NCBI GenBank assembly: GCA_951213105.1
Contig: OX578150.1
Coordinates: 23,440,022 to 23,504,021, forward strand
Source: Amaurobius ferox
Taxonomy: Eukaryota; Arthropoda; Arachnida; Araneae; Amaurobiidae
DNA length: 64,000 bases
Reading direction: 5' to 3'
Shown one piece after another: positions 4,365 through 62,290 of this stretch. Each line of letters begins with the position of its first letter. Within the stretch, counting starts at the first letter, position 1. The notes below the pieces were generated by a model, which was given only the letters and a program-made list of their open reading frames with translations, was not told where the DNA came from and ran no database searches. Made by a program: the position numbers and the translations under genes.

Positions 4365-5845
4365 TTAACAAGAAAAATCAATCATGCATAAAGCATTGAT
4401 CTCTAAAATGCATCTCTAAAATGAGATACATTCAGCGCCGATATATTTTAAATTATAGCACTATAATAAATTATATTTGAAAACTTCATGGGGAAAATAT
4501 TAACTTTATTCAAATGACATTGAAATATAAATCTGGCTCTAAAAGCAATATTTCATGTCACTTATTCCCGACAAATAATTTTGAGTGAAACAAATTCAGC
4601 AGTTCTTATACAACTCGTATTACAAACACTTGTTTACATTCGTCATCCATTAAAATTAGGCTTCGTTGTGGAAATAATCAAAGTTTGTTAATCATTTAAA
4701 CTCAAAAATATTGTGAATAGCGTCCTCGCAGAATATAGATGCACAGAAAATACGCAAAAGTGTGGTTTTAGGACGGATGCAACACTAAATAAATTTAACA
4801 GGAAAGATCAATCATGCATATTCATTGTGAAACACTTTCCAACTTCAATGCAATTTTATTTAAACATCTCTACATTCCTCTGTAATATTTTTAAAATTAT
4901 TACAATACTACATCAATTTATTATATTTGAAAACTTAGAACTTCATCGAAAAAAATTAACTTAATTAAAATGACGGCATTTAAATATAAATTGCCTGGTT
5001 TAAACATCTCTAAAATGCCATACATTTCTCTAATATTTTTAAAATTGTGATACAATAATTTATTATATTTGAAAACTTCATCTAAAACACAATTTAATCA
5101 AATGACGTTATCGAAATATAACACGCCTGGCTCTATAAAAGCAGCATTTCATTCATCACAATACTATAATAATTTAATTTAAAAGCTTAAAACCATGGAG
5201 GTACAAGAAATTAAACTATGCTTAAAACTTTATCGAAAAAATAGTCTACTTTTCTGGGTAAAATCAATGAATATTTCATTCATATCAACTGTATTGCAGA
5301 CTCCATGAGTTAAATAATTTTGCGTTAATGAAATGCAACAATTCTTATACAACTCATTCTACATCTTTTGGTATTTACGTTCTCCATAAGTGAAAATTAG
5401 GCTTCGTTCTAGAAATAAAAGTTGGATGATCACTTAAACTCAAATATATTGTAATTTCACCGTTTCAGTATGTAGATGCACAGAATTTTTAGCAAAAATA
5501 AAGCGATTTTGGGACGGATACAACACTAAATATGAATTAGAAAGTACTTTAAAAATCGCGATTTTAAGACGAGATGGATGCCATATTTTATTTTGAAGTG
5601 GGTCACGTGATCCCTTCATATAATGGTCACGATCTCTTCATATAAAAGGTGTAATTATTTTAATTTTTATTTAAAAACTAAATATATTTTGCTGAAATTT
5701 TATATATTTCATGGGATAATTTGAATATTTCCTAAAACTTTCGAAGCAATTTGAGAATTTTAAATCCGCTTAAAAGATGTTTGAAAAATTAGGTCCCATA
5801 GGGTTCAATGCATTTTCTTTCAACACGAGGACGCATGGAAAAGTT
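4365..5845 (+). mobile_element. Family C repeat with internal tandem module
   Basis: Long AT-rich repeat, also present reversed at 42505-43825 and in part at 30845-31265 and 32465-32725. A module of about 430 bp, running from AAGATCAATCATGCAT to GGACGGATGCAACACTAAAT, occurs in tandem (about 4375-4800, then about 4803-5530). The distal part ends with TTGAAAAATTAGGTCCCATA. It lies in the intron between 4255 and 7297 of the minus-strand candidate gene. Confidence 0.7.
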
Positions 5846-17457: not shown

Positions 17458-17880
17458 TCACTTAGCGAGTTTATCCGCTTCCTCATTTAAAAAGATGCCC
17501 GGGTGTCCAGGTACCCAAACGAATTGGGTTTCGATCTTGTCTTTTCTGATTGTATTTCTTATACTGTTAATAATTATATCTTTTCTATTATTTTTATTTT
17601 TTATTGCTTCTAATGCAGATTTGCTGTCGGTTATAATTACATTTTCCCTATTTTTATCCTCTATGTACTCTACGGCGTAATGAATTGCACAACTTTCTGC
17701 TGTGTATATAGAGCAGCATTTGGGGATTTTTAGATTTCTCTGGCTATTTCTATCAGTATAGATTCCAAATCCCGTTCCGTTTTCCATTTTAGATCCATCC
17801 GTAGCTATCCAATGTGTTTGCTTGTCTTTTTGGAACCTCTGGAACCTTTGGTTCTTTGGAAACACATTTGGAACCTCTAT
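17458..17880 (-). pseudogene. LINE RNase H domain remnant
   Basis: Open frame of about 140 codons with all four acidic motifs of a retrotransposon RNase H in order: ATDGSK, YTAESCA, ITDSKSAL and WVPGHPGIFLNEEADKLA. A stop follows immediately after the last motif, and another stop occurs upstream near 17920, so the copy is dead. With the knuckle fragment at 16975-17265 it forms a 5'-truncated LINE 3' end of I-group type. The RNase H-bearing LINE clade cannot be fixed without the RT. Confidence 0.8.
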
Positions 17881-18158
17881 GGATGTAAAGATCCTTGAAA
17901 AGCTGGATCTACAGAGGTTCTATCCAATTTCATATTTTCGGATTGTATCTTTTCTCTTATTTTTTGTCATTTTAATATTTTGAGCCTTCAGATTTTGATA
18001 ATCCTTTGATGTTTGAACTTGATTTGAATGCATCGCTCCTGAATGTTGATAAATTCATGTGTATTTTTACTTATTTTCCTCAGTATTGTTTTTGAACCAG
18101 GGTATGACACTGATCATGTTTTAAATTAGTCTTATTATTTTTATTTTATTTTTAATTT

Positions 18159-21449: not shown

Positions 21450-22406
21450 ACTTTCCTTATATACATAATGTATAAGGAAAGTATTGTGACGGGTCGAAAA
21501 TTCGAATTCGAGTTTTCGACGTAGAGCACGTTTCAAGCATCCCTGATCACGAATCGATCATTTTTGGACTGATGTCTGTGCGTGTGAAAGTATGTGTGTG
21601 TGTGTGTGTGAAAGTATGTGCGCGTGTGTGTGTGTGTGTGAAAGTATGTGCGTGTGTGTGTGTGAAAGTATGTGCGTGTGTGTGTGTGTGTGCGCGTGTC
21701 AGTGAGTCTGTGGAGACAATATCTCATGAACGAATGGAGCGAATGTTCAGAACCCTCCTAAATTTTTAAGTGAAATTTTGTAAAAATCATTAAAAAATCA
21801 AAACCGTTAATAAAGTTACTCAAATAGACGTTTCTTATGTAATTCTTCCTTAAAAAATGATTGACATAAATTTTAGAACGCTAGAACGAACCGTTCTCGA
21901 GATATTGCACATTTTTAAAATAAATTTATCAAAAAATCCCATAAATTAAAAAAAAAATATATTTACTGTTGAGAAACATGTTCACTTTTCATATGTAATA
22001 TCATGCGATAAATTGGGTGACATCATTCTCGTGGATCTAGCTCATTCCATTCATGAGATAAGATACTTTGAGTAATACTTTTGTATTTGAACGACAATAG
22101 TCATTTATCTGCTATAAGAATAACTTATTTCTCCTTCCATAACACTTTGCGATATATTGGCGACGAATTTAGCGGAATGTCGCTAATTTGGCGACTTTTT
22201 TAAATGTTGCCAAATTAACGAAAATGTCGCCAAATGGATAAAAATAACGCTAAATCAATGAAAATGACGATTAATTGACGAAAATTTAATACCTTAGAAA
22301 GAATATAAGTATCTACTATAAGAATAAACTATTTGCTTTTGCTGTAAAAGTAGTAGATTCATTGTAATATATAAGGAAAGTCGTGTGCTGCCCACATCAG
22401 ATTTTT
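21450..22406 (+). mobile_element. Family A hairpin repeat, full length
   Basis: Starts with a palindrome (ACTTTCCTTATATA ... TATAAGGAAAGT, 21450-21483), then GTCGAAAATTCGAATTCGAG, a long GT tract (21590-21706), the CCGTTCTCGAGATATTGCAC phrase near 21890 and the GGCGA self-complementary block (22145-22240). The second arm ATATAAGGAAAGT follows at 22370-22382, and the terminus TGCTGCCCACATCAGA lies beyond it. No coding capacity. The inverted arm is terminal at one end and subterminal at the other. Confidence 0.85.
21590..21706. repeat. GT microsatellite with AAAGTATGT interruptions
   Basis: Tandem blocks GTGTGTGTGTGAAAGTATGT inside the family A copy. Confidence 0.9.
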
Positions 22407-22677
22407 TTACAATAAGACAAGCTTCAATTGTTCAGAAAAATGTGTTGAAGTCACCAGTTTCTCTAATACTATTAGGAGGATTAATAACCTTCAAGCGCAA
22501 TTCAAACTGTCATTTTCAAGCATAGACAATACTACCACCATTTCTGGAATTATCCTGTTTTTCCATAGAAAATTAACCAATAATAGGCGGGGTTTATCAG
22601 ATTTGGCGTAATAATCTAGGAAAAGATGGTATGAAAATATAAAATTCAGTATAATTCGAGTTCTAATTATGAAATCT

Positions 22678-25392: not shown

Positions 25393-25622
25393 ACTTTCTT
25401 ACAATGTGATCCCCCCCCCCCCCCCATCGAATATCCAAATTTTTTTGCATAGCTGAAAATAAAATCTATCGATAAATTCCGCTGATCAGCAACCTCAAAT
25501 ATGACTAAACTATTTTTCCTCTAACTAATCTTTCGGATGGAGGGCCACAAAAACATAATATTTCAATCCTGGCCAGTTATATATTTTTTTTAATTTTCAC
25601 TAATCAGACATACATATGACGA

Positions 25623-26861
<1,239 letters not shown>

Positions 26862-34862: not shown

Positions 34863-34878
34863 TTGCATTGAAAAAAAA

Positions 34879-35795
34879 TCTGATGTGGGCAGCAGATGAC
34901 TTTCCCTATATAATGCAATGAATTTACTACTTTTACAGTAAAAAAAATAGTAGATATTTATATTCTTTCCAAGTTACTGAATTTCCGTCAATGAGTCGTC
35001 ATTTTCATTGATTTAGCGTCATTTTTATCCATTTGGCGAGTTTTTCGTTAATTTAGTAACATTTTAAAAAGTCGTCAAGTTGGCGACGTTCCACCACATA
35101 CATCGCCAAAATCTCTCCAAGCGTTATGGACGGAGAAATAAGTTATTCTTACAGTAGATAAATGTCTATTGGTGTTCAAATACAAAATTATTACTCAAAG
35201 TATCTTTTTTCATGAATGGAACGAGCTAGACCCACGAGAATGATGTCACCAAATTTATCGCATAGTATTACATGTGAAAAGTGAACATGTTTCTCAATTA
35301 GAAATATTTTTTTTATTTTATATGACTTTTTGATAATATTTTTTAAAAATATGCAATATCTCGAGAACGGTTCATGTTAGCGCTCCAAAATTTATGTCAA
35401 TCGTTTTGTAATGAAAAATTACATTATTCGTTATTTGTGTAACTTTATTAGAGGTTTTGATTTTTTGACGATTTTTCAAAAATTTCACTCGAAAATTTTG
35501 GCGGGTTCTGAACATTCGATTACGTATGAAAACAATAGGCTTTCAGTGTTTACGGATTGTAATTTTTGTACCAAATTTCGTTCGAATCGGTCCATTTGTT
35601 CGTCAGTTATCGTCTCCACAGACTCACTGACACACACACACACATACTTTCACATACACATATAGACATCACTTCAAAAATGTTCCATTCGTGATCAGGG
35701 ATGCTTGAAACGTGCCTCTCCCGTCGAAAACTTGATTTCGAATTTTCGACCCCGTCACAATACTTTCCTTGTACATTATTGTATATAAGGAAAGT
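34879..35795 (-). mobile_element. Family A hairpin repeat, full length
   Basis: TCTGATGTGGGCAGCAGATG at one end; CTTTCCTTGTACATTATTG..GTATATAAGGAAAGT palindrome at the other (35762-35795). Internal GGCGA block near 35030-35115 and AATATCTCGAGAACGG at 35353. Confidence 0.85.
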
Positions 35796-35995: not shown

Positions 35996-36888
35996 CCCTT
36001 CCTTATATACATAATGTATAAGGAAGTATTTGGACTGGGTCAAAAATTCAGTTTTCGATGGGAGAGCACGTTTCAAGCATCCCTGATCACGATTCGAACA
36101 TTTTTGAGGTGATGTCTGTGTGTGTGTGTGTGTGTGTGTCAGTCTGTGGAGACAATATCTCACGAACAAATGGAGCGATTCCAATGAAATTTGGTACAAA
36201 AATCACAATCCGTGAATACTGGAAGCTTATTGTTTTAAAACACAATTACATGTTCAGAACCTCCCTAAATTTTCGAGCGAAATTTTGAAAAAATCATTAA
36301 AAAATCAAAACCTTTAATAAAATTACGCAAATAGACATTTCTTATGTAATTTTTCCTTAGAAAACGATTGACATAAATTTTAGAACGCTAGCATGAACCG
36401 TTCTCGAAATATTGCACATTTTTTAAAAAATCCCATAAATGAAAAAAATATTAACTCTTAAGAAACATGCTCACTTTTCATATGTAATATCATGCGATAA
36501 ATTTGGTGACATCAATCTCGTGGATCTAACTCGTTCCACTCACGAGAAAAGATACTTTGAGTAATACTTTTGTATTTGAACGCCAATAGTCATTTATCTG
36601 CTGTAAGAATAACTTATTTCTCCGTCCATAACGGTTGGCGAGATTTTGGAGGCGAATTTAGCGGAATGTCGCCAACTTGGCGACATTTTTAAATGTTGCC
36701 AAATTCACGAAAATCTTGTCAAATAGATAAAAATGACGCTAAATCAATGAAATAACTGCTAATTGAAGGAAATTCAATATCTTGGAAGGAATATAAATAT
36801 CTACTGTAAGAATAACATTTTTTTTAACTGTAAAAGTAATAAAGTCATTGCATTATATAAGGAAAATCATGTGCTGCTCACATCAGAT
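35996..36888 (+). mobile_element. Family A hairpin repeat, full length
   Basis: Palindrome CCTTCCTTATATACATAATG..AAGGAAG, GT tract 36115-36142, CCGTTCTCGAAATATTGCAC, GGCGA block 36630-36730 and terminus TATATAAGGAAAATC then TGCTGCTCACATCAGA. Confidence 0.85.
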
Positions 36889-38759: not shown

Positions 38760-39682
38760 ACTTTCCTTATATACATAACGTATAAGGAAATTATTGTGCT
38801 GGGGTCGAAATTTCGAATTCGAGTTTTCGACGGGAGAGCACGTTTCAAGCATACATGATTACAAATCGAACATTCTTGAGGTGATGTCTGTGTGTGTGTG
38901 TGTGTGTGAAAGTATGTATGTGTGTGTGTGTGTGAAAGTATGTATGTGTGTGTGTGTGTCAGTGAGTCTGTGGAGATGATATCTCACGAACAAATAGAGC
39001 GATTCGAATGAAATTTAGTACAAAAATCACAATCCGTGAATATTAGAAGCCTATTGTTTTTAAACGTAATCGAATGTTCAGAACCCCCCTATAATAAAGT
39101 TACGGAAGTAGACATTTCTTATGTAAATTTTCCTTAGAAAACGATTGACATAAATTTTAGAACGCTAGCATGAACCATTCTCGAGATATTGCATATTTTT
39201 TAAATAATTTTTTCAAAAAATCCCATAAATAAAAATATATATATATTAACTGTTGAGAAATATGTTCACATTTCATATGTAATACCATGCGATAAATTTA
39301 GTGACATCATTCTCGTGGATCTAGCTCGTTCCATTCATGAGAAAAGATACTTTGAGTAATACTTTTGTATTTGAACGCCAATAGTTATTTATCTGCTATA
39401 AGAATAACTTATTTCCCTGTCCATAACGCTTGGCCAGATTTTGGCGCCGAATTTAGCGGAATGTCGCCAACTTGGCGACTTTTTAAATTTGCCAAATTAA
39501 CGAAAATCTCGCCAAATTGATAAAAATGACTCTAAATCAATTAAAATGACGACTAATTGACGAAAAGTCAATGTTTTGGAAGGAATATAAATATCTACTA
39601 TAAGAAAACCCTATTTTTTATTGTAAAAGTAGTAAGTTCATTGTATTATATAAGTAAAGTCATGTGTTGCCCACATCAAATT
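38760..39682 (+). mobile_element. Family A hairpin repeat, full length
   Basis: Palindrome at 38760-38793, GT tract 38886-38962, CATTCTCGAGATATTGCAT, GGCGA block 39425-39515 and terminus TAAGTAAAGTCATGTGTTGCCCACATC. An internal stretch near 39090 has a small deletion. Confidence 0.85.
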
Positions 39683-39914
39683 TTTTTAACATTAAATTAT
39701 AAACAAAATTTGACAAAAAATAATTTTATTGAACTACATCTTTAATTAAAATCGAAATTTATTTATAAGGGTATATTTTTTTCCAATTTCTACTATGTTT
39801 TTAAATATTAGTTCTTTTACTTCATTTTTTTTTTTTACATTCCTTGGAATATACTACACAAAATTATACATGGATTTTTAGATGCTTTTGATATTTATGT
39901 ATTTAATAAAAATT

Positions 39915-42504: not shown

Positions 42505-43825
42505 TTTTAACACTTTACAACAAAGTTGAAAAGTGTTTATGACTTTGTTCATTCTGTCTGTCTGTCTGTCTGTCCGTTAGCACGATAACTGCCGTAAAAA
42601 TGACTTAATCAAAATGAAATTTTAGTATGTTGTTCAGACGGTCTATAGGACCTATGGGAATATAATTGAATAATATCACCCAAATAGTTTTGGATTGAAC
42701 CCGGGTTGAAAAAATGGAATACATTGAGCCCTATGGGACCTAATTTTTCAAGCATTTTTTAAGCAGATTTAAAATTCACAAATTACTTCAAAAATTTTAG
42801 ACAATATTCAAATTGTTCCATAAAATATATAAAAAAAATTTCAGCGAAATATATTCAGTAGTTTTTTAAATAAAAATTAAAATAATAATAACACCTCTTA
42901 TATGAAGCGATCACGTGTCCATGATATGAAACGATCACATGACCCACTTCAAAATGATATATGGCATCCATCTTGTGTCAAAATCGTGATTTTTAAAGTT
43001 CTTTTTAATTCATATTGAGTGTTGTATCCGTCCTAAAACTACCTTATTTTTGCCTAAATTCTGTGCATCTACATACTGAAACAACGCAATGACAATATAT
43101 TTCAGTTTAAATGCTCATTCAAATTTGATTATTTCTACTATTAAGCCTATTTTTCACCTATGTAAAATGTAAACAGCAAAATATGTAGAAAGAGTTGTAT
43201 TAGTATCGCTGTAATTCTTTAACACAAAATCATTTAGTCCATGGAGTCTGCATGGCTGATATGAATGAAATATTCATTGATTTTAGAAAGAGAAGGACGA
43301 TAATTTTCGATGAAGTTTTACGCATAGAGTTAACTTATTTGTAGCTCCATGGTCTTAATTTTTAAATAAAATAAATTATTATTGTATTGTGATGAATGAC
43401 ATGAATGGGGGAATTATTTATGAATGAAATGTTGCTTTTATAGAGAGAGCCAGGCGTGTTATTTTTTATGATGTCATTTGAATGAATTTCAGTTGTTTTC
43501 GATGAAGTTTTCAAATATAATAAATTATCGTAGTATTATGATAATTCTAAAATTATTACCGAGGAATGTATCAGATTTTAGAGATGTTTAAACCAGGCAA
43601 TTTATACTTTAATGCTGTCATTTGAATGAAGTTAATTTTTTTCGATGAAGGTTTAAGGTTTCAAATATAATAAATTAATGTAGTATTGTGATAAGTTTTA
43701 AAATATTACCGAGGAATGTATTGCATTTTAGACATGTTTAAATAAAATTGCATTGAAGTTGGAAAGTGTTTCATAATCAATGCTTTAAGCATGATTGATC
43801 TTTCTTGTTTTAAGTCTGTAATGTT
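42505..43825 (-). mobile_element. Family C repeat, near full length, splitting family G
   Basis: Left end is a hairpin (CACTTTACAACAAAGTTGAAAAGTG) followed by GTCTGTCTGTCTGTCTGTCC. It then runs through module sequence to GATCTTTCTTG at about 43805. Reverse of 4365-5845. Family G sequence resumes after it. Confidence 0.75.
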
Positions 43826-47854: not shown

Positions 47855-47860
47855 TATACC
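47855..47860. repeat. 6-bp target-site duplication TATACC, left
   Basis: Identical to 59719-59724. Confidence 0.85.
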
Positions 47861-47880
47861 AGTAGAAAAGGAAGGGGCGT

Positions 47881-48320
47881 TCACCTGCGAAGGCGGTATG
47901 TGCGGTATGCGGTATGCGGTAGGGCCGCCATCTTGAATTCCATAATCCTGGACGGGGGTGTAAAAGGGGGGAAAATGAAAAAAAGTGGGGGTGAAAAATT
48001 TTGGAGAAACTTTTTGTCGGGTGGCAACGATGTCGTAGTCTTGTACGAGGGGTTGAGGGGGAAATAAATTTTTTGGAATGAGATTTTTTCTAAGTAGGGA
48101 AGAAACTGTTTTGGAGGTGGCAACACCTGCGAAGGCGGTATGGAACCATAACCGCCCCGTAGCGGTGGAAAGTGGAACTATCGAGGATGGAACTTAGCAT
48201 TTTTTTTTTTTGTTTCGATTGCCATAGCAACACCTGTGGGGTAGAAACTTTTTTCAGGGTGGCAACACCTGCGAAGGCGGTATGGAACCATAACCGCCCC
48301 CTAGCGGCAGAAAGGAGAAT
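47881..48320. repeat. GGCGGTATG-rich module (mirror 59259-59698)
   Basis: CACCTGCGAAGGCGGTATG occurs three times; two copies (48126 and 48267) sit in ~140-bp units that also contain GGAACCATAACCGCCCC..TAGCGG. The first has the short tandem TGCGGTATGCGGTATGCGG. Confidence 0.85.
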
Positions 48321-48419
48321 TAGAATTGGGATTTTTCTGATAGTTGAGATTTTTTTTTTCTTTTTCTAAATGAATTAATTAAGTACGAAATATTCGTATT
48401 TTTTTTTCTTTTTCTTAAA

Positions 48420-49330
48420 TGAATTAAAGGTGTTAATGAGGATAATTAAATAAAGTGATTAAGTATATAAAGGCCATTGTTATCCATCCGCATGCTAGAA
48501 GCGTGCCAAGGACATGGTAAAGGTATACCAAAGGGATATGCTGAAGACATGCCAAGGTCATGTCAATATCCCTCCGCTATATCGCGGTTACGAAGTGAAC
48601 TGCGAGAATCTTGTAGGGTGTAGGGGTATGCCAAGAGGATCGAACATGAATTTTAAGAAAGTGTTACTTTTAGCGTTTTTTCGCAAAAAGTTTTCAAAAC
48701 GTTAAAAAAACAACAAAAATGTACGTTTTTAAAATAAATTGTGGTTTTTAGATTGTTTGAATTCTCTATGGGAAATAACATGGGTTTTCACACTTTTGTG
48801 TATTTTTTGTAAAAAAAATGTGCGTTTTTGCAAAAGTGTTACCAAAAAAGCGTTTTTTGAAAAATGTTACATTTTGCGATTTTTTTTCGAAATGCCGTTT
48901 TCTCTATGGGAATTAACATAGGTTTTCGCACTTTTACATTTTTTTAAAAAAAATGTGCGTTTTTGCAAAAGTGTTACCAAAAATGCGTTTTTTGAAAAAT
49001 GTGACATTTTGCGATTTTTTTCAAAAACACACTTTTTACTTGTAAAAACTAAGAAAAACACGTTTTTAAAGTAGCAGAATCGCGTGAATTGGTGTTTTAA
49101 AGTAGCAGAATCGCGTGAATTGGTGTTTTAAAGTAGTAGAATCGCGTGAATTGGTGTTTTAAAGTAGCAGAATCGCGTGAATTGGTGTTTTAGAGTAGCA
49201 GAATCGTATGAATCGGGTGTATAGGAGGGGGTGTGTTTCTACAATCATTTCGATCTTGGAGTTTAAAAAATTTTAATATTCCCCAAAATAAATGTTTTTA
49301 AATAATCGTGAAAGTGTACTACTACCATAG
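48420..49330. repeat. Large module copy 1 inside left arm (mirror 58249-59159)
   Basis: From GAATTAAAGGTGTTAATGAGG through CTCCGCTATATCGCGGTTAC, GGGTATGCCAAGAGGATCG, repeated TTTTTGCAAAAGTG blocks and CATTTCGATCTTGGAG to AATAATCGTGAAAGTGT. Recurs diverged at 50140-50860. Confidence 0.85.
49068..49215. repeat. 31-bp tandem repeat, ~4.7 copies (mirror 58364-58511)
   Basis: Units AAAGTAGCAGAATCGCG then TGAATTGGTGTTTT, nearly identical. Confidence 0.95.
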
Positions 49331-49520
49331 GGGGTTTCTTTATACCAACATGGTTTAATATGAGTACCATTTTACAAGTGTACTACTACCATAGGGGGTT
49401 TCTTTAAACCAACATGGTTTAATACGTGTGTTATTTTATACATGTGTTATTTCTTTAAACCAGCATGGCTTAATACGTATGTTATTTTACAAGTATACTA
49501 CTACCATAGGCTACCATAGG
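49310..49520. repeat. ~60-bp tandem repeat, ~3 copies (mirror 58059-58269)
   Basis: Units with TACTACTACCATAGGGGG, TTTCTTTAAACCAACATGG and TTTAATA, followed by an A/T-rich spacer. Confidence 0.9.
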
Positions 49521-49539
49521 GGTGCCTTTTAATTTTAAC

Positions 49540-50110
49540 ATGTTTTAAAAACCGCACGACAGACCCGAAGGCCTAGTGTAGCAAAGTGTGTGACTGGTTA
49601 GTGTAATGTGTGTAAGTGAATTATTTTTTAATTTTTTAATTGTGGTCCCACCTCCACCCGTCAATTTAAACTGGATAAAAAACAACAAGTGTTTAATATC
49701 TAATGTAAATCGACGCCACAATTTAACTGTGATTCTCAAATGAATACCGCAGAGTACATTAAATCACGATGACAGATCTACCCCTCCCCACCTCGCGTGA
49801 ATGTGGATACTTACGTTAAAACATTGTATGGTCAGTGCGGGAAAGATGAGGATACTGCTAACAGAGTGTGGTTCTGTATCTGGACATAACTTTAGGCTAT
49901 ATATCGCGTTGAGCTTGGGTTTGGCCGACGGTTTAGAACGGCTCTCGCCGCTATTGTTAACATCTGTGGTGGGGGACAGTTTTTACGGACTGATAGAATG
50001 CTTGTGTTGTTAGATTAAAAAGACACTACTAAATATCATTGTATTCTCAGCTGGGAGAGGCTCTTTTAAAGAAGTTCTTATTAAATTTTAACATGTTTTA
50101 AAAAGAATCT
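49540..50110. other. Non-repetitive stretch of arm (mirror 57469-58039)
   Basis: Least repetitive part of the arm. Open frames up to 70 codons on either strand have no recognisable content. Confidence 0.5.
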
Positions 50111-50139
50111 TTCATTCATTAGTGTTATGAATCACGCAA

Positions 50140-50900
50140 GTTAATTAAAGGATGTTAATTAAATTAATTGATTAAGTATTGAATGCCTGTATACCAGGAG
50201 CATGTCAAAGACATGTCAAGGGGTATGTCAAAGCGTACCAAGGGTGTGCCAAAGGAGTATGCTGAAGGCATACCAAGACCATCGTTCCTACACTATCCCT
50301 CCGCTATATCGCGATTACGAAGTGAACTGCGAGAATCTTGTAGGGTGTAGGGGTATGCCAAGAGGATCGAACATAAATTTTAAGAATGTGCCGCTTTTAG
50401 CGTTTTTTTCACAAAAAGTTTTAAAAACGTTAAAAAAACAACAAAAATGTGTGTTTTTTCAACAAGTTGAAGTTTTGGAGTTGTTGGATTTCTCTATGGG
50501 AATTAACATGGGTTTTCACACTTTTGCGAATTTTTTAGAAAAAAAATGTGGTTTTTCGCAAAAAAGCGGCCAAAAATGTGTTTTTTGAAAAACGCTGAAT
50601 CGGCCGATTTTTTTCAAACTGTCGGATTTCTCTATGGGAATTAACATAGGTTTTCTCACTTTTGCAATTTTTTTAAAAAAAATGTGCGTTTTTGCAAAAA
50701 TGCGGCCAAAGAAGCGTGTTTTTAGAGTAGCAGAATTTCGGGAATCTCGAGAATCTCGGGAATCTCGGGAATTGGGTGTATGGGAGGGGGTATGTTTCCC
50801 CAACCATTTCGGTCTTAGAGTTTAAAAAATAAATATTTTCAATAATCGTGAAAGTGTGCTTATGTCCAAAATACTTGAGCGTCATGAATCTCACAAGTTA
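50140..50900. repeat. Large module copy 2 inside left arm (mirror 56679-57439)
   Basis: Same order as 48420-49330 with substitutions and indels; includes GGAATCTCG short tandems at 50740-50780. The two copies lie about 1.7 kb apart. Confidence 0.85.
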
Positions 50901-51039
50901 ATTAGAGGATGATAATTAAATTAGGCGATTAAGTCTTGGAGTTTAAATAATAGCAGATACCAATGCCTGTATACGTATGTTATTTCTTTAAACCAACATG
51001 TTTTAGTACGTGCGTTATTCTAAGAGGGAGAAACGCCTA

Positions 51040-53000
51040 ATATGCTGATACATATGACACACGCGCTCAGCACAAATCGATGCAAATAAATGGTGAGATA
51101 GTTTTTAAAGACGAAACTTTGAAATTGTTTTCGATAAATAAGGTATTTGAGGTTATTTAACGTGTGAATGAACGATAACATGTCAATAAAATGAGGAACT
51201 AGGCTAAGTTTACAAGTATAGGACTTTAAAGTTTTGATGTTTTAGGGGATAGAACTTGAATTTATAATTAAACATGATTTATACTAACTACTGTAAAGGG
51301 AGAAATGCATAGCGAAAGGGGTTATGTGTGTATATAATGCATATAACCAACACCCACCGGTGGAATGCAGATCTAAGATAGTATTTTCAGGAGAAGACAT
51401 GGGATTCTTAAGTAAATGGAGTATTTAGAGGCATTTAAAGAGATATAAACATATGATAAGGTAACATCCATAATACACACAACTAATATAGGACAGCGAA
51501 AGGAAAACTTTAGTATTGTTTAGAGACCGAACTTCAAATTTTTAAGTAAATGTAGGTGTTTGGAAAATTTTTAATGAACTATGTACGATACACATGTCTC
51601 CGATCACAGTGGTAGAAAAGTGATACCGGAGCAGTTTTTAAAGATGTGACTTTAACTTTTTTCAATTAAGTGAAGAATCTACTAAATATTAGAGGGTGCT
51701 AGCGCTTACCGAGGGTTTTATGTATAATACACATAAGCAGCATATAACATTAGGAAGGGGATATTAGAAAAATTTTTAAAGATAGGACTTTAGATTTTGG
51801 AACTAAATGATATATCAAGAAACATTTAAAGGGGATGAAAACATCTAATGAGGCGGAATGGGGGTGTACTTACCCAAGATACCCAGCACTGAAATTATTC
51901 ACTAAGATAAATTTTTATAAAGTAAAGACTTTAGAAGTTTCACATAAAAGGCAATTTATACTAGTTTTTAAAGAAATGAAAACGCCCAGCGAGATGACTT
52001 AGAATGAATACAACGCCGATATATATAACAGTGAAAAGAAAAACTTAAATATTGTTTAAAGACTGCACTTCAAATTTCAAAGTAAATGTACATACCCAGA
52101 AACTTTTAATGGACTAGTATAATACACATACTCGATATAACAGTTAAATGATGAACTAAGAATAATTTATAAGTATATAACTTTGGATTTTTTTTTTAGT
52201 TAAATAGGGATTTCAGCTAATTTTTAGAGGGATAGAAAGGTATACTAAAGGGTGTACAACAAATTTTTAGAAGGGACTTAGGGAATTTGCTAGCTAAATA
52301 GGGATTTCCACTACTTTTTAAAGGGATATAAAGACATACTAAAGGGTATACAGCAAATTTTTAGAGGGGACTTTGAGAATTTTTTAGCTAAATAGGGATT
52401 TCTACTAACTTTTAAGGAATAGAAACACGTACTGAAGAGTATAGAGCGTAATCATTACTAACACCTAGTGCTAAAATGAGGAATTAGAGTAATATTTTGG
52501 GGATGGGACTTTAGATTTTTAAGTAAATGTTATGTTTAAAAACTTTTAAAGTAGCGTAAATACCTACTAAGATGACATATGCGATACACATAGCCAATAC
52601 ATAGTTATTAAATAGGGAAAAGCTAAGATGGCTTTTTAGAATAACACCTAAAATTTTTTCTAACTAAGCGCAATATATCAACACTTAAAGCGGACGAATA
52701 CGAAGATTCAGACGGCATGTGTGATACATATCGCGGGCACATAATAGTTAAATGTTAATTTAAGTAAGTTTTTAAGGATAGAACTCTGAATTTTTGGGTA
52801 AATGAGATGTTTAAGAACATTTAAAGAGTCAAAAACACCTAATAAGGCGGTATGAGATGATTTCATCATCATCAGATAACAGTGAAATGGGGATACTACA
52901 AATATTTTAAAGGGGAATCCTTAAAATTTCTAAGTAAATAACCTTTAAAGGGGTGAAAAATATATAGTGAAGTTGTGTAGATAATACAGATCATCGACAT
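51040..53000. repeat. Degenerate ~150-bp tandem array (mirror 54579-56539)
   Basis: Recurring order: a GATACACATA-type segment, a TAACAGTGAAATG-type segment, TTTTTAAAGATGGGACTTT-type text, TTTAAGTAAATG and ACTTTTAAAGGG.TGAAAACACC. At least a dozen diverged units. Confidence 0.75.
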
Positions 53001-53640
53001 TCTAAAACAGACAAGACATGTCTATACAAGATAAAAAATGTTGTACGTTAATATAAACATGCATTATTATATGTAGCAATGTAATACATACCCCAAGATT
53101 TATATAAAGTAATTGCGAATACATTATATCAATCCCATCAGAAATCACCTAAAATAATAAAATTATCAAGCTGAATAATATATCTAGGTACTAAAACCCC
53201 AACAAACTACATTAAATTGATAAAAATCTTAACTAAATAAAATAATGAAGCTGTAACATACTATAAAAATACTAAGTTTAATAAAATAATAGAATAAAAT
53301 CATATTAAAGCAAGTACTTACATGTTCAATCCGACTCAAAATGCTACATTAGGTGTAGGCCGATGAATAATGACAGATATAACATCTCCAGCTTTACCAA
53401 CTTAAACCGACCTATTCCCAGAGCAACTTGAAACGCGTCTTGACAGCACGAAATCCACAGCAGAAGTGATAAAATCGATACTTCAACGACACCCCCTACA
53501 CGACAAGGTCACATCAAGGTCATATCATGGTTACAGTTAAACTATGGTATAAAATAGAATCACATGTTAAAAAATAATAGATTTTAGTAAAATAATTAAA
53601 GAAAATCCCTCTGTGATTATGAATGAGCTGTCTATATTTA

Positions 53641-53652
53641 CCGTGTGTGTGT

Positions 53653-53698
<46 letters not shown>
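53641..53698. repeat. GT microsatellite in left arm
   Basis: About 58 bp with GC variants. The mirror tract at 53889-53938 is about 48 bp and carries two TA variants. Confidence 0.95.
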
Positions 53699-53701
<3 letters not shown>

Positions 53702-53753
53702 TATACCTTAAAAAGCTATATATCTGTAGTATCCCAACGGATACTAATATTTG

Positions 53754-53835
53754 TTTTTCAAACTTAGAAAAACTTTATTTCAGTTGCACTTATTTTAAGT
53801 GTAATTAAAAAAAAGTTTTAACTAAATGTGTAAGA
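53754..53835. other. Central spacer of palindrome (82 bp)
   Basis: Asymmetric, but retains weak mirrored similarity (AGAAAAACTTTA against TAAAACTTTTTT in reverse) and an internal CACTTATTTTAAGTG palindrome. Confidence 0.85.
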
Positions 53836-56800
53836 CAAATATTAGTATCCGTTGGGATACTACAGATATATAGCTTTTTAAGGTATAATTACACACACAC
53901 ACACACACATACACACGCACACGCACACACACATACGGTAAATATAGACAGCTCATTCATAATCACAGAGGGATTTTCTTTAATTATTTTACTAAAATCT
54001 ATTATTTTTTAACATGTGATTCTATTTTATACCATAGTTTAACTGTAACCATGATATGACCTTGATGTGACCTTGTCGTGTAGGGGGTGTCGTTGAAGTA
54101 TCGATTTTATCACTTCTGCTGTGGATTTCGTGCTGTCAAGACGCGTTTCAAGTTGCTCTGGGAATAGGTCGGTTTAAGTTGGTAAAGCTGGAGATGTTAT
54201 ATCTGTCATTATTCATCGGCCTACACCTAATGTAGCATTTTGAGTCGGATTGAACATGTAAGTACTTGCTTTAATATGATTTTATTCTATTATTTTATTA
54301 AACTTAGTATTTTTATAGTATGTTACAGCTTCATTATTTTATTTAGTTAAGATTTTTATCAATTTAATGTAGTTTGTTGGGGTTTTAGTACCTAGATATA
54401 TTATTCAGCTTGATAATTTTATTATTTTAGGTGATTTCTGATGGGATTGATATAATGTATTCGCAATTACTTTATATAAATCTTGGGGTATGTATTACAT
54501 TGCTACATATAATAATGCATGTTTATATTAACGTACAACATTTTTTATCTTGTATAGACATGTCTTGTCTGTTTTAGAATGTCGATGATCTGTATTATCT
54601 ACACAACTTCACTATATATTTTTCACCCCTTTAAAGGTTATTTACTTAGAAATTTTAAGGATTCCCCTTTAAAATATTTGTAGTATCCCCATTTCACTGT
54701 TATCTGATGATGATGAAATCATCTCATACCGCCTTATTAGGTGTTTTTGACTCTTTAAATGTTCTTAAACATCTCATTTACCCAAAAATTCAGAGTTCTA
54801 TCCTTAAAAACTTACTTAAATTAACATTTAACTATTATGTGCCCGCGATATGTATCACACATGCCGTCTGAATCTTCGTATTCGTCCGCTTTAAGTGTTG
54901 ATATATTGCGCTTAGTTAGAAAAAATTTTAGGTGTTATTCTAAAAAGCCATCTTAGCTTTTCCCTATTTAATAACTATGTATTGGCTATGTGTATCGCAT
55001 ATGTCATCTTAGTAGGTATTTACGCTACTTTAAAAGTTTTTAAACATAACATTTACTTAAAAATCTAAAGTCCCATCCCCAAAATATTACTCTAATTCCT
55101 CATTTTAGCACTAGGTGTTAGTAATGATTACGCTCTATACTCTTCAGTACGTGTTTCTATTCCTTAAAAGTTAGTAGAAATCCCTATTTAGCTAAAAAAT
55201 TCTCAAAGTCCCCTCTAAAAATTTGCTGTATACCCTTTAGTATGTCTTTATATCCCTTTAAAAAGTAGTGGAAATCCCTATTTAGCTAGCAAATTCCCTA
55301 AGTCCCTTCTAAAAATTTGTTGTACACCCTTTAGTATACCTTTCTATCCCTCTAAAAATTAGCTGAAATCCCTATTTAACTAAAAAAAAAATCCAAAGTT
55401 ATATACTTATAAATTATTCTTAGTTCATCATTTAACTGTTATATCGAGTATGTGTATTATACTAGTCCATTAAAAGTTTCTGGGTATGTACATTTACTTT
55501 GAAATTTGAAGTGCAGTCTTTAAACAATATTTAAGTTTTTCTTTTCACTGTTATATATATCGGCGTTGTATTCATTCTAAGTCATCTCGCTGGGCGTTTT
55601 CATTTCTTTAAAAACTAGTATAAATTGCCTTTTATGTGAAACTTCTAAAGTCTTTACTTTATAAAAATTTATCTTAGTGAATAATTTCAGTGCTGGGTAT
55701 CTTGGGTAAGTACACCCCCATTCCGCCTCATTAGATGTTTTCATCCCCTTTAAATGTTTCTTGATATATCATTTAGTTCCAAAATCTAAAGTCCTATCTT
55801 TAAAAATTTTTCTAATATCCCCTTCCTAATGTTATATGCTGCTTATGTGTATTATACATAAAACCCTCGGTAAGCGCTAGCACCCTCTAATATTTAGTAG
55901 ATTCTTCACTTAATTGAAAAAAGTTAAAGTCACATCTTTAAAAACTGCTCCGGTATCACTTTTCTACCACTGTGATCGGAGACATGTGTATCGTACATAG
56001 TTCATTAAAAAATTTCCAAACACCTACATTTACTTAAAAATTTGAAGTTCGGTCTCTAAACAATACTAAAGTTTTCCTTTCGCTGTCCTATATTAGTTGT
56101 GTGTATTATGGATGTTACCTTATCATATGTTTATATCTCTTTAAATGCCTCTAAATACTCCATTTACTTAAGAATCCCATGTCTTCTCCTGAAAATACTA
56201 TCTTAGATCTGCATTCCACCGGTGGGTGTTGGTTATATGCATTATATACACACATAACCCCTTTCGCTATGCATTTCTCCCTTTACAGTAGTTAGTATAA
56301 ATCATGTTTAATTATAAATTCAAGTTCTATCCCCTAAAACATCAAAACTTTAAAGTCCTATACTTGTAAACTTAGCCTAGTTCCTCATTTTATTGACATG
56401 TTATCGTTCATTCACACGTTAAATAACCTCAAATACCTTATTTATCGAAAACAATTTCAAAGTTTCGTCTTTAAAAACTATCTCACCATTTATTTGCATC
56501 GATTTGTGCTGAGCGCGTGTGTCATATGTATCAGCATATTAGGCGTTTCTCCCTCTTAGAATAACGCACGTACTAAAACATGTTGGTTTAAAGAAATAAC
56601 ATACGTATACAGGCATTGGTATCTGCTATTATTTAAACTCCAAGACTTAATCGCCTAATTTAATTATCATCCTCTAATTAACTTGTGAGATTCATGACGC
56701 TCAAGTATTTTGGACATAAGCACACTTTCACGATTATTGAAAATATTTATTTTTTAAACTCTAAGACCGAAATGGTTGGGGAAACATACCCCCTCCCATA

Positions 56801-59718
56801 CACCCAATTCCCGAGATTCCCGAGATTCTCGAGATTCCCGAAATTCTGCTACTCTAAAAACACGCTTCTTTGGCCGCATTTTTGCAAAAACGCACATTTT
56901 TTTTAAAAAAATTGCAAAAGTGAGAAAACCTATGTTAATTCCCATAGAGAAATCCGACAGTTTGAAAAAAATCGGCCGATTCCGCGTTTTTCAAAAAACA
57001 CATTTTTGGCCGCTTTTTTGCGAAAAACCACATTTTTTTTCTAAAAAATTCGCAAAAGTGTGAAAACCCATGTTAATTCCCATAGAGAAATCCAACAACT
57101 CCAAAACTTCAACTTGTTGAAAAAACACACATTTTTGTTGTTTTTTTAACGTTTTTAAAACTTTTTGTGAAAAAAACGCTAAAAGCGGCACATTCTTAAA
57201 ATTTATGTTCGATCCTCTTGGCATACCCCTACACCCTACAAGATTCTCGCAGTTCACTTCGTAATCGCGATATAGCGGAGGGATAGTGTAGGAACGATGG
57301 TCTTGGTATGCCTTCAGCATACTCCTTTGGCACACCCTTGGTACGCTTTGACATACCCCTTGACATGTCTTTGACATGCTCCTGGTATACAGGCATTCAA
57401 TACTTAATCAATTAATTTAATTAACATCCTTTAATTAACTTGCGTGATTCATAACACTAATGAATGAAAGATTCTTTTTAAAACATGTTAAAATTTAATA
57501 AGAACTTCTTTAAAAGAGCCTCTCCCAGCTGAGAATACAATGATATTTAGTAGTGTCTTTTTAATCTAACAACACAAGCATTCTATCAGTCCGTAAAAAC
57601 TGTCCCCCACCACAGATGTTAACAATAGCGGCGAGAGCCGTTCTAAACCGTCGGCCAAACCCAAGCTCAACGCGATATATAGCCTAAAGTTATGTCCAGA
57701 TACAGAACCACACTCTGTTAGCAGTATCCTCATCTTTCCCGCACTGACCATACAATGTTTTAACGTAAGTATCCACATTCACGCGAGGTGGGGAGGGGTA
57801 GATCTGTCATCGTGATTTAATGTACTCTGCGGTATTCATTTGAGAATCACAGTTAAATTGTGGCGTCGATTTACATTAGATATTAAACACTTGTTGTTTT
57901 TTATCCAGTTTAAATTGACGGGTGGAGGTGGGACCACAATTAAAAAATTAAAAAATAATTCACTTACACACATTACACTAACCAGTCACACACTTTGCTA
58001 CACTAGGCCTTCGGGTCTGTCGTGCGGTTTTTAAAACATGTTAAAATTAAAAGGCACCCCTATGGTAGCCTATGGTAGTAGTATACTTGTAAAATAACAT
58101 ACGTATTAAGCCATGCTGGTTTAAAGAAATAACACATGTATAAAATAACACACGTATTAAACCATGTTGGTTTAAAGAAACCCCCTATGGTAGTAGTACA
58201 CTTGTAAAATGGTACTCATATTAAACCATGTTGGTATAAAGAAACCCCCTATGGTAGTAGTACACTTTCACGATTATTTAAAAACATTTATTTTGGGGAA
58301 TATTAAAATTTTTTAAACTCCAAGATCGAAATGATTGTAGAAACACACCCCCTCCTATACACCCGATTCATACGATTCTGCTACTCTAAAACACCAATTC
58401 ACGCGATTCTGCTACTTTAAAACACCAATTCACGCGATTCTACTACTTTAAAACACCAATTCACGCGATTCTGCTACTTTAAAACACCAATTCACGCGAT
58501 TCTGCTACTTTAAAAACGTGTTTTTCTTAGTTTTTACAAGTAAAAAGTGTGTTTTTGAAAAAAATCGCAAAATGTCACATTTTTCAAAAAACGCATTTTT
58601 GGTAACACTTTTGCAAAAACGCACATTTTTTTTAAAAAAATGTAAAAGTGCGAAAACCTATGTTAATTCCCATAGAGAAAACGGCATTTCGAAAAAAAAT
58701 CGCAAAATGTAACATTTTTCAAAAAACGCTTTTTTGGTAACACTTTTGCAAAAACGCACATTTTTTTTACAAAAAATACACAAAAGTGTGAAAACCCATG
58801 TTATTTCCCATAGAGAATTCAAACAATCTAAAAACCACAATTTATTTTAAAAACGTACATTTTTGTTGTTTTTTTAACGTTTTGAAAACTTTTTGCGAAA
58901 AAACGCTAAAAGTAACACTTTCTTAAAATTCATGTTCGATCCTCTTGGCATACCCCTACACCCTACAAGATTCTCGCAGTTCACTTCGTAACCGCGATAT
59001 AGCGGAGGGATATTGACATGACCTTGGCATGTCTTCAGCATATCCCTTTGGTATACCTTTACCATGTCCTTGGCACGCTTCTAGCATGCGGATGGATAAC
59101 AATGGCCTTTATATACTTAATCACTTTATTTAATTATCCTCATTAACACCTTTAATTCATTTAAGAAAAAGAAAAAAAAATACGAATATTTCGTACTTAA
59201 TTAATTCATTTAGAAAAAGAAAAAAAAAATCTCAACTATCAGAAAAATCCCAATTCTAATTCTCCTTTCTGCCGCTAGGGGGCGGTTATGGTTCCATACC
59301 GCCTTCGCAGGTGTTGCCACCCTGAAAAAAGTTTCTACCCCACAGGTGTTGCTATGGCAATCGAAACAAAAAAAAAAAATGCTAAGTTCCATCCTCGATA
59401 GTTCCACTTTCCACCGCTACGGGGCGGTTATGGTTCCATACCGCCTTCGCAGGTGTTGCCACCTCCAAAACAGTTTCTTCCCTACTTAGAAAAAATCTCA
59501 TTCCAAAAAATTTATTTCCCCCTCAACCCCTCGTACAAGACTACGACATCGTTGCCACCCGACAAAAAGTTTCTCCAAAATTTTTCACCCCCACTTTTTT
59601 TCATTTTCCCCCCTTTTACACCCCCGTCCAGGATTATGGAATTCAAGATGGCGGCCCTACCGCATACCGCATACCGCACATACCGCCTTCGCAGGTGAAC
59701 GCCCCTTCCTTTTCTACT
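53836..59718 (-). repeat. Right arm of giant inverted repeat (5883 bp)
   Basis: Mirror of the left arm; all modules listed there occur here at 107579 - x. Confidence 0.93.
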
Positions 59719-59724
59719 TATACC
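59719..59724. repeat. 6-bp target-site duplication TATACC, right
   Basis: Identical to 47855-47860. The following CTCGGAAGG matches the family D text CCTCCGAGG near 40390 in reverse, continuing the repeat interrupted by the palindrome. Confidence 0.85.
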
Positions 59725-61139: not shown

Positions 61140-62290
61140 GAGTCCGGTGGAGACATTTTTCTCATTGGACCCACCCCTCTCTCTTTAAGACTATGCACCA
61201 GGCATTATCAATGTACTGTGGTAAAAAAATATGGGGTCTAATCTGCCGGTATGGGCGACTTTTGGATTGTTTGAAGACGATTTCTGATTTCCATAAACGA
61301 CACTGTTTATTCTTTTCATCATGACGTTGAGTTCTTCCTAGTGGTTTTGCAGTTTCGGCCAAAATCCTGGTCGTCGCCAAGGGTCGAACAGCCATACTTT
61401 GTCGGCCTCATGGAATCATACTTTATTAGCTTTAGCATCGTATCTGGTTTTCATATTCTTTCCGTAGCTATGTTGATTCTTTCACTAGCAAAAGGATAAA
61501 CTTTCTCCAACCGTGCATGCAGATCTTGCACATATTCATCTGGCAGTGAAGGGGCATGACATGGTCGTCCAAACAATAGATCACACGATAGTTGCAATTA
61601 AGAATGTCCGATCGATTCATGGACTGCACTTCTGTAAGCCAGCAGGAAAAGGGTAGATGACGGTCCATCTTGCTGGTTTCTTAATACGAATATGGAGAGA
61701 TGATTATTAAGTATCGATCTGTTCAATCTTTCTTCCATGCCGTTCGATTGAGGATGTCGTATTTCTGAAGTCGGTGAATCCATCTTGCGACCTGTCCTTC
61801 AGTGTTCTTAACACTGAGGAGCCAGATGAAAGCAGCGTGAACAGTACGCAACAATAATTCTTTCCGTAAAGATGATGATGAACATGATGTACGGATTTAA
61901 CAATTACCAACAGTTTTTTCCTCGTTACGCAGAACTGTTTTTTGGACTTCGACAAGCACTTGCTAAAGTATGCGATGAGACACTCATTCCTGCCTTCATA
62001 TTTCCTAGGAAATAACTACCCCTATGCCTTCTTTACTAGCATTTGTATCTAGCGTAAATCTCTCTGTTGGTTGAGGACATGGCAGAATTGAAGCTAAAGG
62101 CAGCATATTCTAAAACCGATTGAAGGCATCTTCACATTCCGTTGTCCATTCAAATTTCTTGTCACCTTCCGTTTTCGATGGCGATACTTGAGAAGTTCTT
62201 TGCAGAAAACTGTATTCTTGTTGCCATGGAAATTTCTAATAAAGTGACCGAAGCATATGAGTAAATTCTGCTCTCAATTAATTTTGATCA
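61140..62290 (-). pseudogene. Gypsy (Ty3-type) pol relic, internally deleted and frameshifted
   Basis: Read on the minus strand from 62290 downward. A degraded RT thumb is followed by the RT/RNase H connection KFEWTTECEDAF (about 62163-62128), FTLDTNASKEGIGVV and IAYFSKCLSKSKKQFCVTRK (61972 on). RNase H continues as LLSVKNTEGQVARWIHRLQ (to about 61767), joined within a few bases to the integrase C-terminal part of the core RHPQSNGMEERLNR (61763-61720). AYRSAVHESIGHS, GRPCHAPSLPDEYVQDLHAR, TRYDAKANK and HEADKVWLFDP follow in shifting frames. The rest of RNase H, the zinc-binding domain and the first two integrase acidic motifs are missing between 61767 and 61763. Stops and frameshifts make it non-functional. 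Confidence 0.88.

Follow-up and report, generated by a model that had tools for sequence, protein, structure and literature searches.

Structure and gene content of the palindrome

The window, a stretch of 64,000 nucleotides from the spider Amaurobius ferox (GCA_951213105.1, contig OX578150.1, positions 23,440,022 to 23,504,021), contains a palindromic element of 11,858 bp (47861-59718), each arm of which is about 5.93 kb long. The arms pair without gaps over 5,828 nt (47861-53688 with 53891-59718) at a constant sum of 107579, and the four mismatches in this stretch comprise two in a TG tract and two elsewhere (50596/56983 and 51567/56012). Past the TG tract, whose left copy is 10 bp longer, the pairing sum changes to 107589 and pairing is perfect again for about 55 bp; the central ~82 bp then pairs at 29 of 39 columns of the arm alignment (~74%) until it closes in a few-base loop near 53795. 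Since the core itself forms an imperfect hairpin that ends in this small loop, the palindrome extends over the entire element. The folding z-score of the core is -7.1, and none of 200 shuffles folds equally well, the folded piece taking in some of the perfect arm. Among the other copies of the family described below, the two-sided core is also central in L012, L016, L018, L022, L024, and L028 and has been lost in L014 (L010, L020, and L026 are unaligned there).

The arm is composed of sub-repeats, namely a duplicated 480-bp segment, a 31-bp array, and a 1.9-kb run of degenerate repeats (Table 1). No unit of this last run was found at E <= 0.01 elsewhere in the window beyond the palindrome, and the only arm similarity elsewhere in the window is the TG tract (E <= 0.001). 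The motif GCCGCCATCTTG lies near the palindrome end (47924-47935), and GGCCGCCATCTT is invariant in all 11 aligned termini; it resembles a YY1 site.

Table 1. Coordinates of the palindromic element and its parts in the window.
Feature	Position	Strand	Remarks
Left 6-bp target site duplication TATACC	47855..47860	+	Flush with AGTAGA
Left arm (~5.93 kb), begins AGTAGA	47861..53795	+	Arm pairing
Outer arm; three copies of CACCTGCGAAGGCGGTATG	47861..48461	+	Two gene-bearing relatives (C8, C17) have an end 90% identical to it
Internal segment of ~480 bp, first copy	48519..48993	+	84% identity to the second copy (50240-50722)
Tandem array, unit 31 bp, 4.8 copies	49064..49213	+	
Internal segment, second copy	50240..50722	+	84% identity to 48519-48993
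Degenerate satellite-like repeats	51110..52972	+	15 units at E < 0.05, spacing 90-146 bp
Inner arm next to the centre (311 bp)	53330..53640	+	99-100% identity at the best 40 of 1,226 candidate places
TG microsatellite	53643..53698	+	10 bp longer than its mirror copy (53891-53933)
Imperfect central hairpin	53740..53850	+	Also central in several further family members
Right arm, mirroring the left; ends in TCTACT	53796..59718	-	Arm pairing
Right 6-bp target site duplication TATACC	59719..59724	+	Flush with TCTACT

A six-frame translation of the arm in which stops were replaced by X gave zero Pfam matches at E <= 0.1; searches with ten single open reading frames (ORFs) produced nothing near the curated cut-offs (best E 0.029, 14.8 bits versus 27), and two arm ORFs had no match in a separate domain scan. 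The longest stop-free frame in the arm is 138 aa, somewhat above five shuffles (77-105). The protein-primed DNA polymerase B was absent from the element in the Pfam six-frame and ORF scans; retroviral-type integrase, ATPase, protease, and capsid had no Pfam match in the arm, and tblastn of the arm with the integrase and ATPase found beside a Polinton polymerase of the same genome (L038) gave no match. Since these defining genes were searched for and are absent, the element is not itself a Polinton, and it is classified as Polinton-type and non-autonomous. An arm ORF had no match in a set of 5.8 billion proteins (E <= 0.01), the palindrome had none in a phage collection, and Rfam (gathering) and tRNA scans of the window returned nothing. 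The exact terminus and inner-arm patterns gave 0, 1, and 0 matches in IMG/VR, and the single match (L001) was rejected as chance, with just 19-22 bases in common.

The original prediction, which was made from the letters of the window, described a giant gene-free palindrome that starts with AG, ends with CT, and is bounded by a perfect 6-bp TATACC duplication, all of which the flush repeats, the termini, and the Pfam search of the six frames bear out. Its mirror arms with a constant sum of 107579 stand as far as 53688/53891 and not beyond, where the sum shifts after the TG tract, and its separating spacer of 82 bp has to be given up, as the core itself pairs and leaves no unique spacer.

A genome-wide family inserted as units

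The genome searched was the assembly of 3.56 Gb in 276 contigs, in which the 17-nt terminus pattern AGTAGWWAAGRAAGGGG has 598 exact matches, compared with 5 for the reversed control. Among the first 100 of these places listed, 64 make 32 inverted pairs less than 35 kb apart, with spans of 642-676 bp (five pairs), 7.0-13.1 kb (23 pairs), and 17.9-29.6 kb (four pairs). These pairs are positions only, and not every 7-13-kb pair is a palindrome of the window's type, because the one at C3:36970540 carries PC4 and C1:73338918-73346543 contains a flank of the 0.65-kb class. With the first 601 bp of the arm as query, the best 40 of 2,506 candidate places contained 47 matches, corresponding to 24 elements; 16 of them are listed with both ends, 14 measuring 10.5-12.6 kb and the others 7.4 and 13.3 kb. 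For the 311-bp inner piece, the best 40 of 1,226 places comprise 17 inverted pairs and six singles.

Ten other palindromes (L010-L029) were read at both ends. For a fair count of duplications, the boundary was set where the agreement between the arms stops, and 0-5 bases of inward slack were tested. By this measure, a perfect 6-bp duplication is present next to AGTA in nine of the 11 palindromes (that of the window and eight of the ten others), with an offset of 0 in five cases and of 1 in four, the duplicated sequences being TATACC, TCCATT, TACAAA, ACCGAA, TGTCAA (twice), GGTGAT, AGCGTT, and TAAAGC. The duplications of L024 and L026 are seen only by a second boundary choice, which required AG plus a duplication; that of L024 (GGCGTC) requires that a one-base difference between the ends (AGTGAG, AGAGAG) be allowed, and that of L026 (TATATA) lies inside a TA repeat and is little informative. 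The termini read AGTAGT in four palindromes (L010, L012, L014, and L026), AGTAGA in six including that of the window, and AGTGAG/AGAGAG in L024; all 11 have the form AG..CT, and the AGTAGA of the window shares five of six bases with AGTAGT.

The flanks of L016 and L020 are identical (297 of 297 bases per side), so these two represent one insertion in a duplicated segment. L014 sits within an arm of another family member, and its flanks, joined minus one copy of the duplication, align over 200 bp to uninterrupted arms (94% to that of L026 with no gap, 93% to that of the window with one gap), which therefore represent the empty site. The 6-bp duplications, the AGTAG-type ends, and, in one case, an empty site together show that members of the palindrome family transpose as whole units.

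Shorter units (L044-L047, about 0.5-0.65 kb) consist of two inward-facing family ends, with inverted flanks in all four that were read. The 0.65-kb class was considered as a short deleted form of the palindromes and rejected, its flanks being inverted copies of each other without direct duplication. An inverted polymerase pair (C7:132849683-132858846) has one flank pair of this class precisely at its centre.

Variation within and between elements

Over the first 5,500 bp, the two arms of an element differ at 0-15 of 5,192-5,500 positions (11 elements, gaps uncounted), whereas arms of different elements differ by 0.02-19.7%, or at least 0.09% when L016/L020 are taken once. Private changes, polarised with L026, are found in both arms 21 times and in one arm once in L018, and three times and once, respectively, in L010. 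The pairwise counts of both-arm to one-arm differences are 43/5 for L010/L018, 45/14 for L012/L018, 5/1 for both L016/L022 and L020/L022, and 0/2 for L016/L020, the single duplicated insertion. As a pattern in the aligned copies, the two arms of each element thus appear to change together. L016 and L022 are separate insertions, which makes transposition recent.

Divergence of nine elements from the window arm, determined by bin, is 3-12% in the outer 600 bp and 0-6% at 3,300-5,700 bp; it reaches 58% in the bins of 600-3,300 bp, where alignments are unreliable owing to repeats, and in the last bin, which includes the core, it rises again in most of the nine copies. The inner arm (53330-53640) is more alike among copies than the outer arm (99-100% versus 86-95%, from two best-40 lists), and the same trend is seen in the nine read copies. 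The greater likeness of the inner arm suggests that ends are swapped or that the region close to the centre is under constraint. Since an element bears one and the same outer module on its two arms, any end that was exchanged has to have been copied across to the partner arm.

Gene-bearing relatives, half-element forms, and canonical Polintons

The outer arm is common to elements that carry two divergent genes, one for a PC4-domain protein and one for a family-B DNA polymerase. At C8:103690778 and C17:45761075, the first 601 bp of the window arm is matched at 90% (at C17 from base 13), with PC4 and polymerase behind it, and C10:61718165-61730432 is a 12.3-kb element with PC4 and polymerase both inside its ends. 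The outer arm also recurs in two larger relatives. One, of 28.4 kb (C2:142020972-142049402), has a CACGCA duplication and terminal inverted repeats (TIRs) that are 98.6% identical over 700 bp and match L024 at 84-97% in pieces; it contains polymerase B, a PC4 ORF, a reverse transcriptase, and a zinc-finger ORF. The other, of 17.9 kb (C2:25578868-25596801), has TIRs identical over the 700 bp read and a 7-bp duplication, TGCAAAG, a length seen only in this relative and not in the palindromes. ORFs of the 17.9-kb relative (L040, C2:25586900-25588700) join AlkB-like 2OG-Fe(II) oxygenase and PC4 domains.

When the polymerase piece was searched against the genome, the best 114 of 5,685 places comprised 61 matches at 81-100%, which are mostly single and include many intact frames near 1,277 aa, and 53 matches at 72-74%, which are mostly inverted pairs. 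The PC4 ORF gave 107 matches from the best 106 of 3,389 candidates. A PC4 match lies within 20 kb of 44 of the 61 polymerase matches at 81% or more; all 44 are divergent, 32 of them at a distance of 3.6-4.3 kb. The PC4 ORF had no match in the 5.8-billion-protein set (E <= 0.001), in which at least 8,000 relatives of a 358-aa polymerase piece were found; the named sources among the best 120 of these are spiders, a gastropod, corals, sea anemones, and an ant. The same piece had no match in viral contigs.

Some forms carry one of the two genes in inverted duplicate. The element at C3:36970540-36981171 has AGTAGTAAAG ends, a CCTGCA duplication, and two inverted intact PC4 ORFs located 2,909 and 2,907 bp from the ends, and no polymerase is among the listed matches within it. 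Further inverted PC4 pairs are found at C11:161727352/161734702 and C15:91896382/91902596, and inverted polymerase pairs without a PC4 listed within 20 kb at C24:31561589/31565681 (97%) and C13:123203795/123212377 (89-90%). By gene positions alone, the 72-74% lineage forms 19 inverted polymerase pairs, 13 of which are 8.15-8.71 kb apart start to start, often with equal scores; an end of the palindrome family lies between two polymerases at C13:74589370-74598983.

Canonical Polintons are also present in this genome. The domain DNA_pol_B_2 (PF03175) gave 85 matches from the best 76 of 4,222 candidates, with many open frames of ~1,520 aa, and Pox_A32 ATPase and rve integrase ORFs were found beside one polymerase (L038). 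A Polinton copy on C13 ends in ACTACT, i.e., its terminus reads AGTAGTATATGGGG. The best 40 of 442 places for the 120-bp AGTAGTATATGGGG terminus include 17 inverted pairs and six singles; of the 17 pairs, 15 span 16.1-19.0 kb and the remaining two 5.1 and 21.7 kb, and 11 bracket a listed PF03175 polymerase. One such terminus (L039, C13:38329700-38334700) is a short palindrome of ~51 bp, 90% self-complementary.

Origin of the palindromes

The palindrome in the window is likely to be one copy of a large non-autonomous Polinton/Maverick-type family of giant near-perfect palindromes, made by fold-back and inserted by a Polinton integrase. Its symmetry has probably arisen, and been kept, by fold-back (snap-back) copying of one half in protein-primed replication. 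As the polymerase family and the AGT-repeat ends suggest, the linear element DNA would be replicated from its AGT ends by a protein-primed polymerase; the displaced strand would fold back at the inner hairpin and copy one half; this copying would yield a palindrome with the same end twice and wipe out differences between the arms; the integrase of the genome's Polintons would then insert the palindrome in trans. If either half were folded back, the expected products would be inverted pairs containing just PC4 or just polymerase, and the common imperfect core may be the fold-back point, or just an old spacer escaping homogenisation. A wider proposal, which we regard as evenly poised between right and wrong, is that snap-back defective genomes of a protein-primed virus-like transposon became self-sustaining mobile families of left-half, right-half, and gene-free palindromes. 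These would carry the same replication origin at both ends, have their symmetry remade in every replication cycle, and live as parasites on full Polintons, whose integrase would insert them.

Much of this was anticipated by the original prediction, which took the palindrome for an inserted mobile unit, possibly an arms-only foldback mobilised by Polinton/Maverick machinery, and pointed to further copies with 6-bp duplications. Copies, duplications at new sites, and one empty site have been found, and the AGT-type ends, the presence of Polintons, and the gene-bearing relatives that share the arm support the link to that machinery, of which the integrase is the part that we infer. Its attribution of the near-identical arms to recent insertion or gene conversion is kept as regards recent transposition and is refined in that the arms of each element seem to change together, with elements up to 20% apart.

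Arm identity could also be kept by in-place gene conversion. The foremost alternative, though an unlikely one, is that the palindromes are an ancient foldback family whose very long inverted repeats have been made alike in this way after insertion, as happens in other chromosomal palindromes. It would account for the near-identity of the arms in 11 elements and for the existence of both-arm private changes, and Galileo illustrates that arms-only offshoots of an ordinary transposon are possible (PMC3573991). However, L016 and L020, one insertion that was duplicated, have since acquired no both-arm and two one-arm changes, while the separate insertions L016 and L022 differ by five both-arm changes and one one-arm change; these counts, though small, would fit arm-to-arm copying during replication followed by one-arm drift better than steady in-place conversion. 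In-place conversion alone also does not predict inverted single-gene pairs. Mobilisation of a foldback by another DDE superfamily, IS3EU or GingerRoot, for which 6-bp duplications are usual, is very improbable, as these elements have TA..TA ends (GingerRoot occasionally TG..CA) (PMC10045372), whereas all 11 read palindromes begin with AG; moreover, the gene-bearing relatives of the palindrome carry DNA polymerase B. Missed-adapter sequencing reads produce perfect palindromes, and a read folded back on itself could thus imitate such an element, but a sequencing or assembly artefact is scarcely credible here, given outer flanks that differ, junctions with duplications, an empty site, and ten further copies, each with its own small arm differences.

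Several points weigh against fold-back and Polinton-driven insertion. The arms do drift apart, since L012 has one both-arm and six one-arm private changes and differs from L010 by nine both-arm and 17 one-arm changes; large one-arm insertions or deletions are also present in L010 and L020. The portions read of the gene-bearing elements revealed no integrase, so that the helper is inferred, and the 12.3-kb form would have little room for one, judging by its gene spacing (2 kb read, L056). The two-gene element cannot simply be halved to give the gene-free arm, which has kilobases of its own repeats, and the PC4 element on C3 is an inverted repeat with a loop: it was tried as a full palindrome and rejected, the central 300 bp read being non-palindromic. 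The half forms on C11, C15, C24, and C13 are known as gene pairs, and the canonical Polintons were judged by ends and genes. Each genome search, finally, lists just its top-scoring candidates.

The loop of the C3 element (L057, C3:36975706-36976005) contains, by eye, a stretch that resembles an exon bordered by sequences like splice sites and that may be captured host DNA.

To our knowledge, the replication of Polintons in animals has largely been inferred from their genes, and a fold-back-shaped family with single-gene inverted forms and recent insertion pairs makes it testable. The family also represents a route by which a transposon sheds all of its genes yet stays mobile, and provides a natural set of many 10-13-kb palindromes for the study of chromosomal palindrome stability.

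Other features of the window

At 25620-26858 (+), behind a TA repeat, an open frame of 413 aa encodes a reverse transcriptase domain (RVT_1, E 1.5e-11); from its motifs, we take it to be Penelope-like. Retroelement remnants comprise an RNase H domain at 17461-17919 (-) and an RNase H domain of the reverse transcriptase of long terminal repeat (LTR)-type elements at 61710-62015 (-). A dispersed repeat of ~0.6-0.8 kb is present in about five copies at 79-87% (1518-2342, 21740-22413, 34867-35611, 36162-36888, and 38977-39688), and a 1.1-kb inverted repeat of 80% identity has its copies 37 kb apart (4797-5827 and 42702-43809).

Comparison with known systems

Vertebrate Mavericks have (AG)3 or (AGT)2 ends, 6-bp duplications, and, in the intact set, TIRs of 46-1,447 bp (PMC8097293). 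The palindromes resemble Polinton/Maverick elements in their 6-bp duplications, (AGT)2-type ends, and inverted termini, and in the family-B polymerase of the relatives that share their arms; the canonical Polintons of the same genome likewise end in AGTAGT. The resemblance of the termini to Polinton/Maverick ends that the original prediction saw thus extends to the published motif, and the TA..TA ends of the IS3EU type are not matched. Unlike Mavericks, with TIRs of the above range, the palindrome has no genes and inverted repeats of 5.9 kb, so that the whole element is repeat. No description of palindromic Polintons was found in the titles and abstract openings listed from the open-licence literature.

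Ginger1 and Ginger2 have TGTNR ends and 4-bp duplications, in Ginger2 also 5 bp (PMC2836005, PMC10045372). Galileo, of the P superfamily, is similar in its arms-only copies and long, internally repetitive inverted repeats, and differs in its 7-bp duplications and TIRs of up to ~1.25 kb, compared with 6 bp, AG..CT ends, and 5.9-kb arms here (PMC3573991). The nearest documented analogue of the palindrome shape is the snapback defective genomes of adeno-associated virus (AAV), which are self-complementary left or right halves in symmetric and asymmetric forms (PMC8235507). These are packaged viral subgenomes, whereas the palindromes described here are chromosomal, inserted with duplications, and present in many copies.

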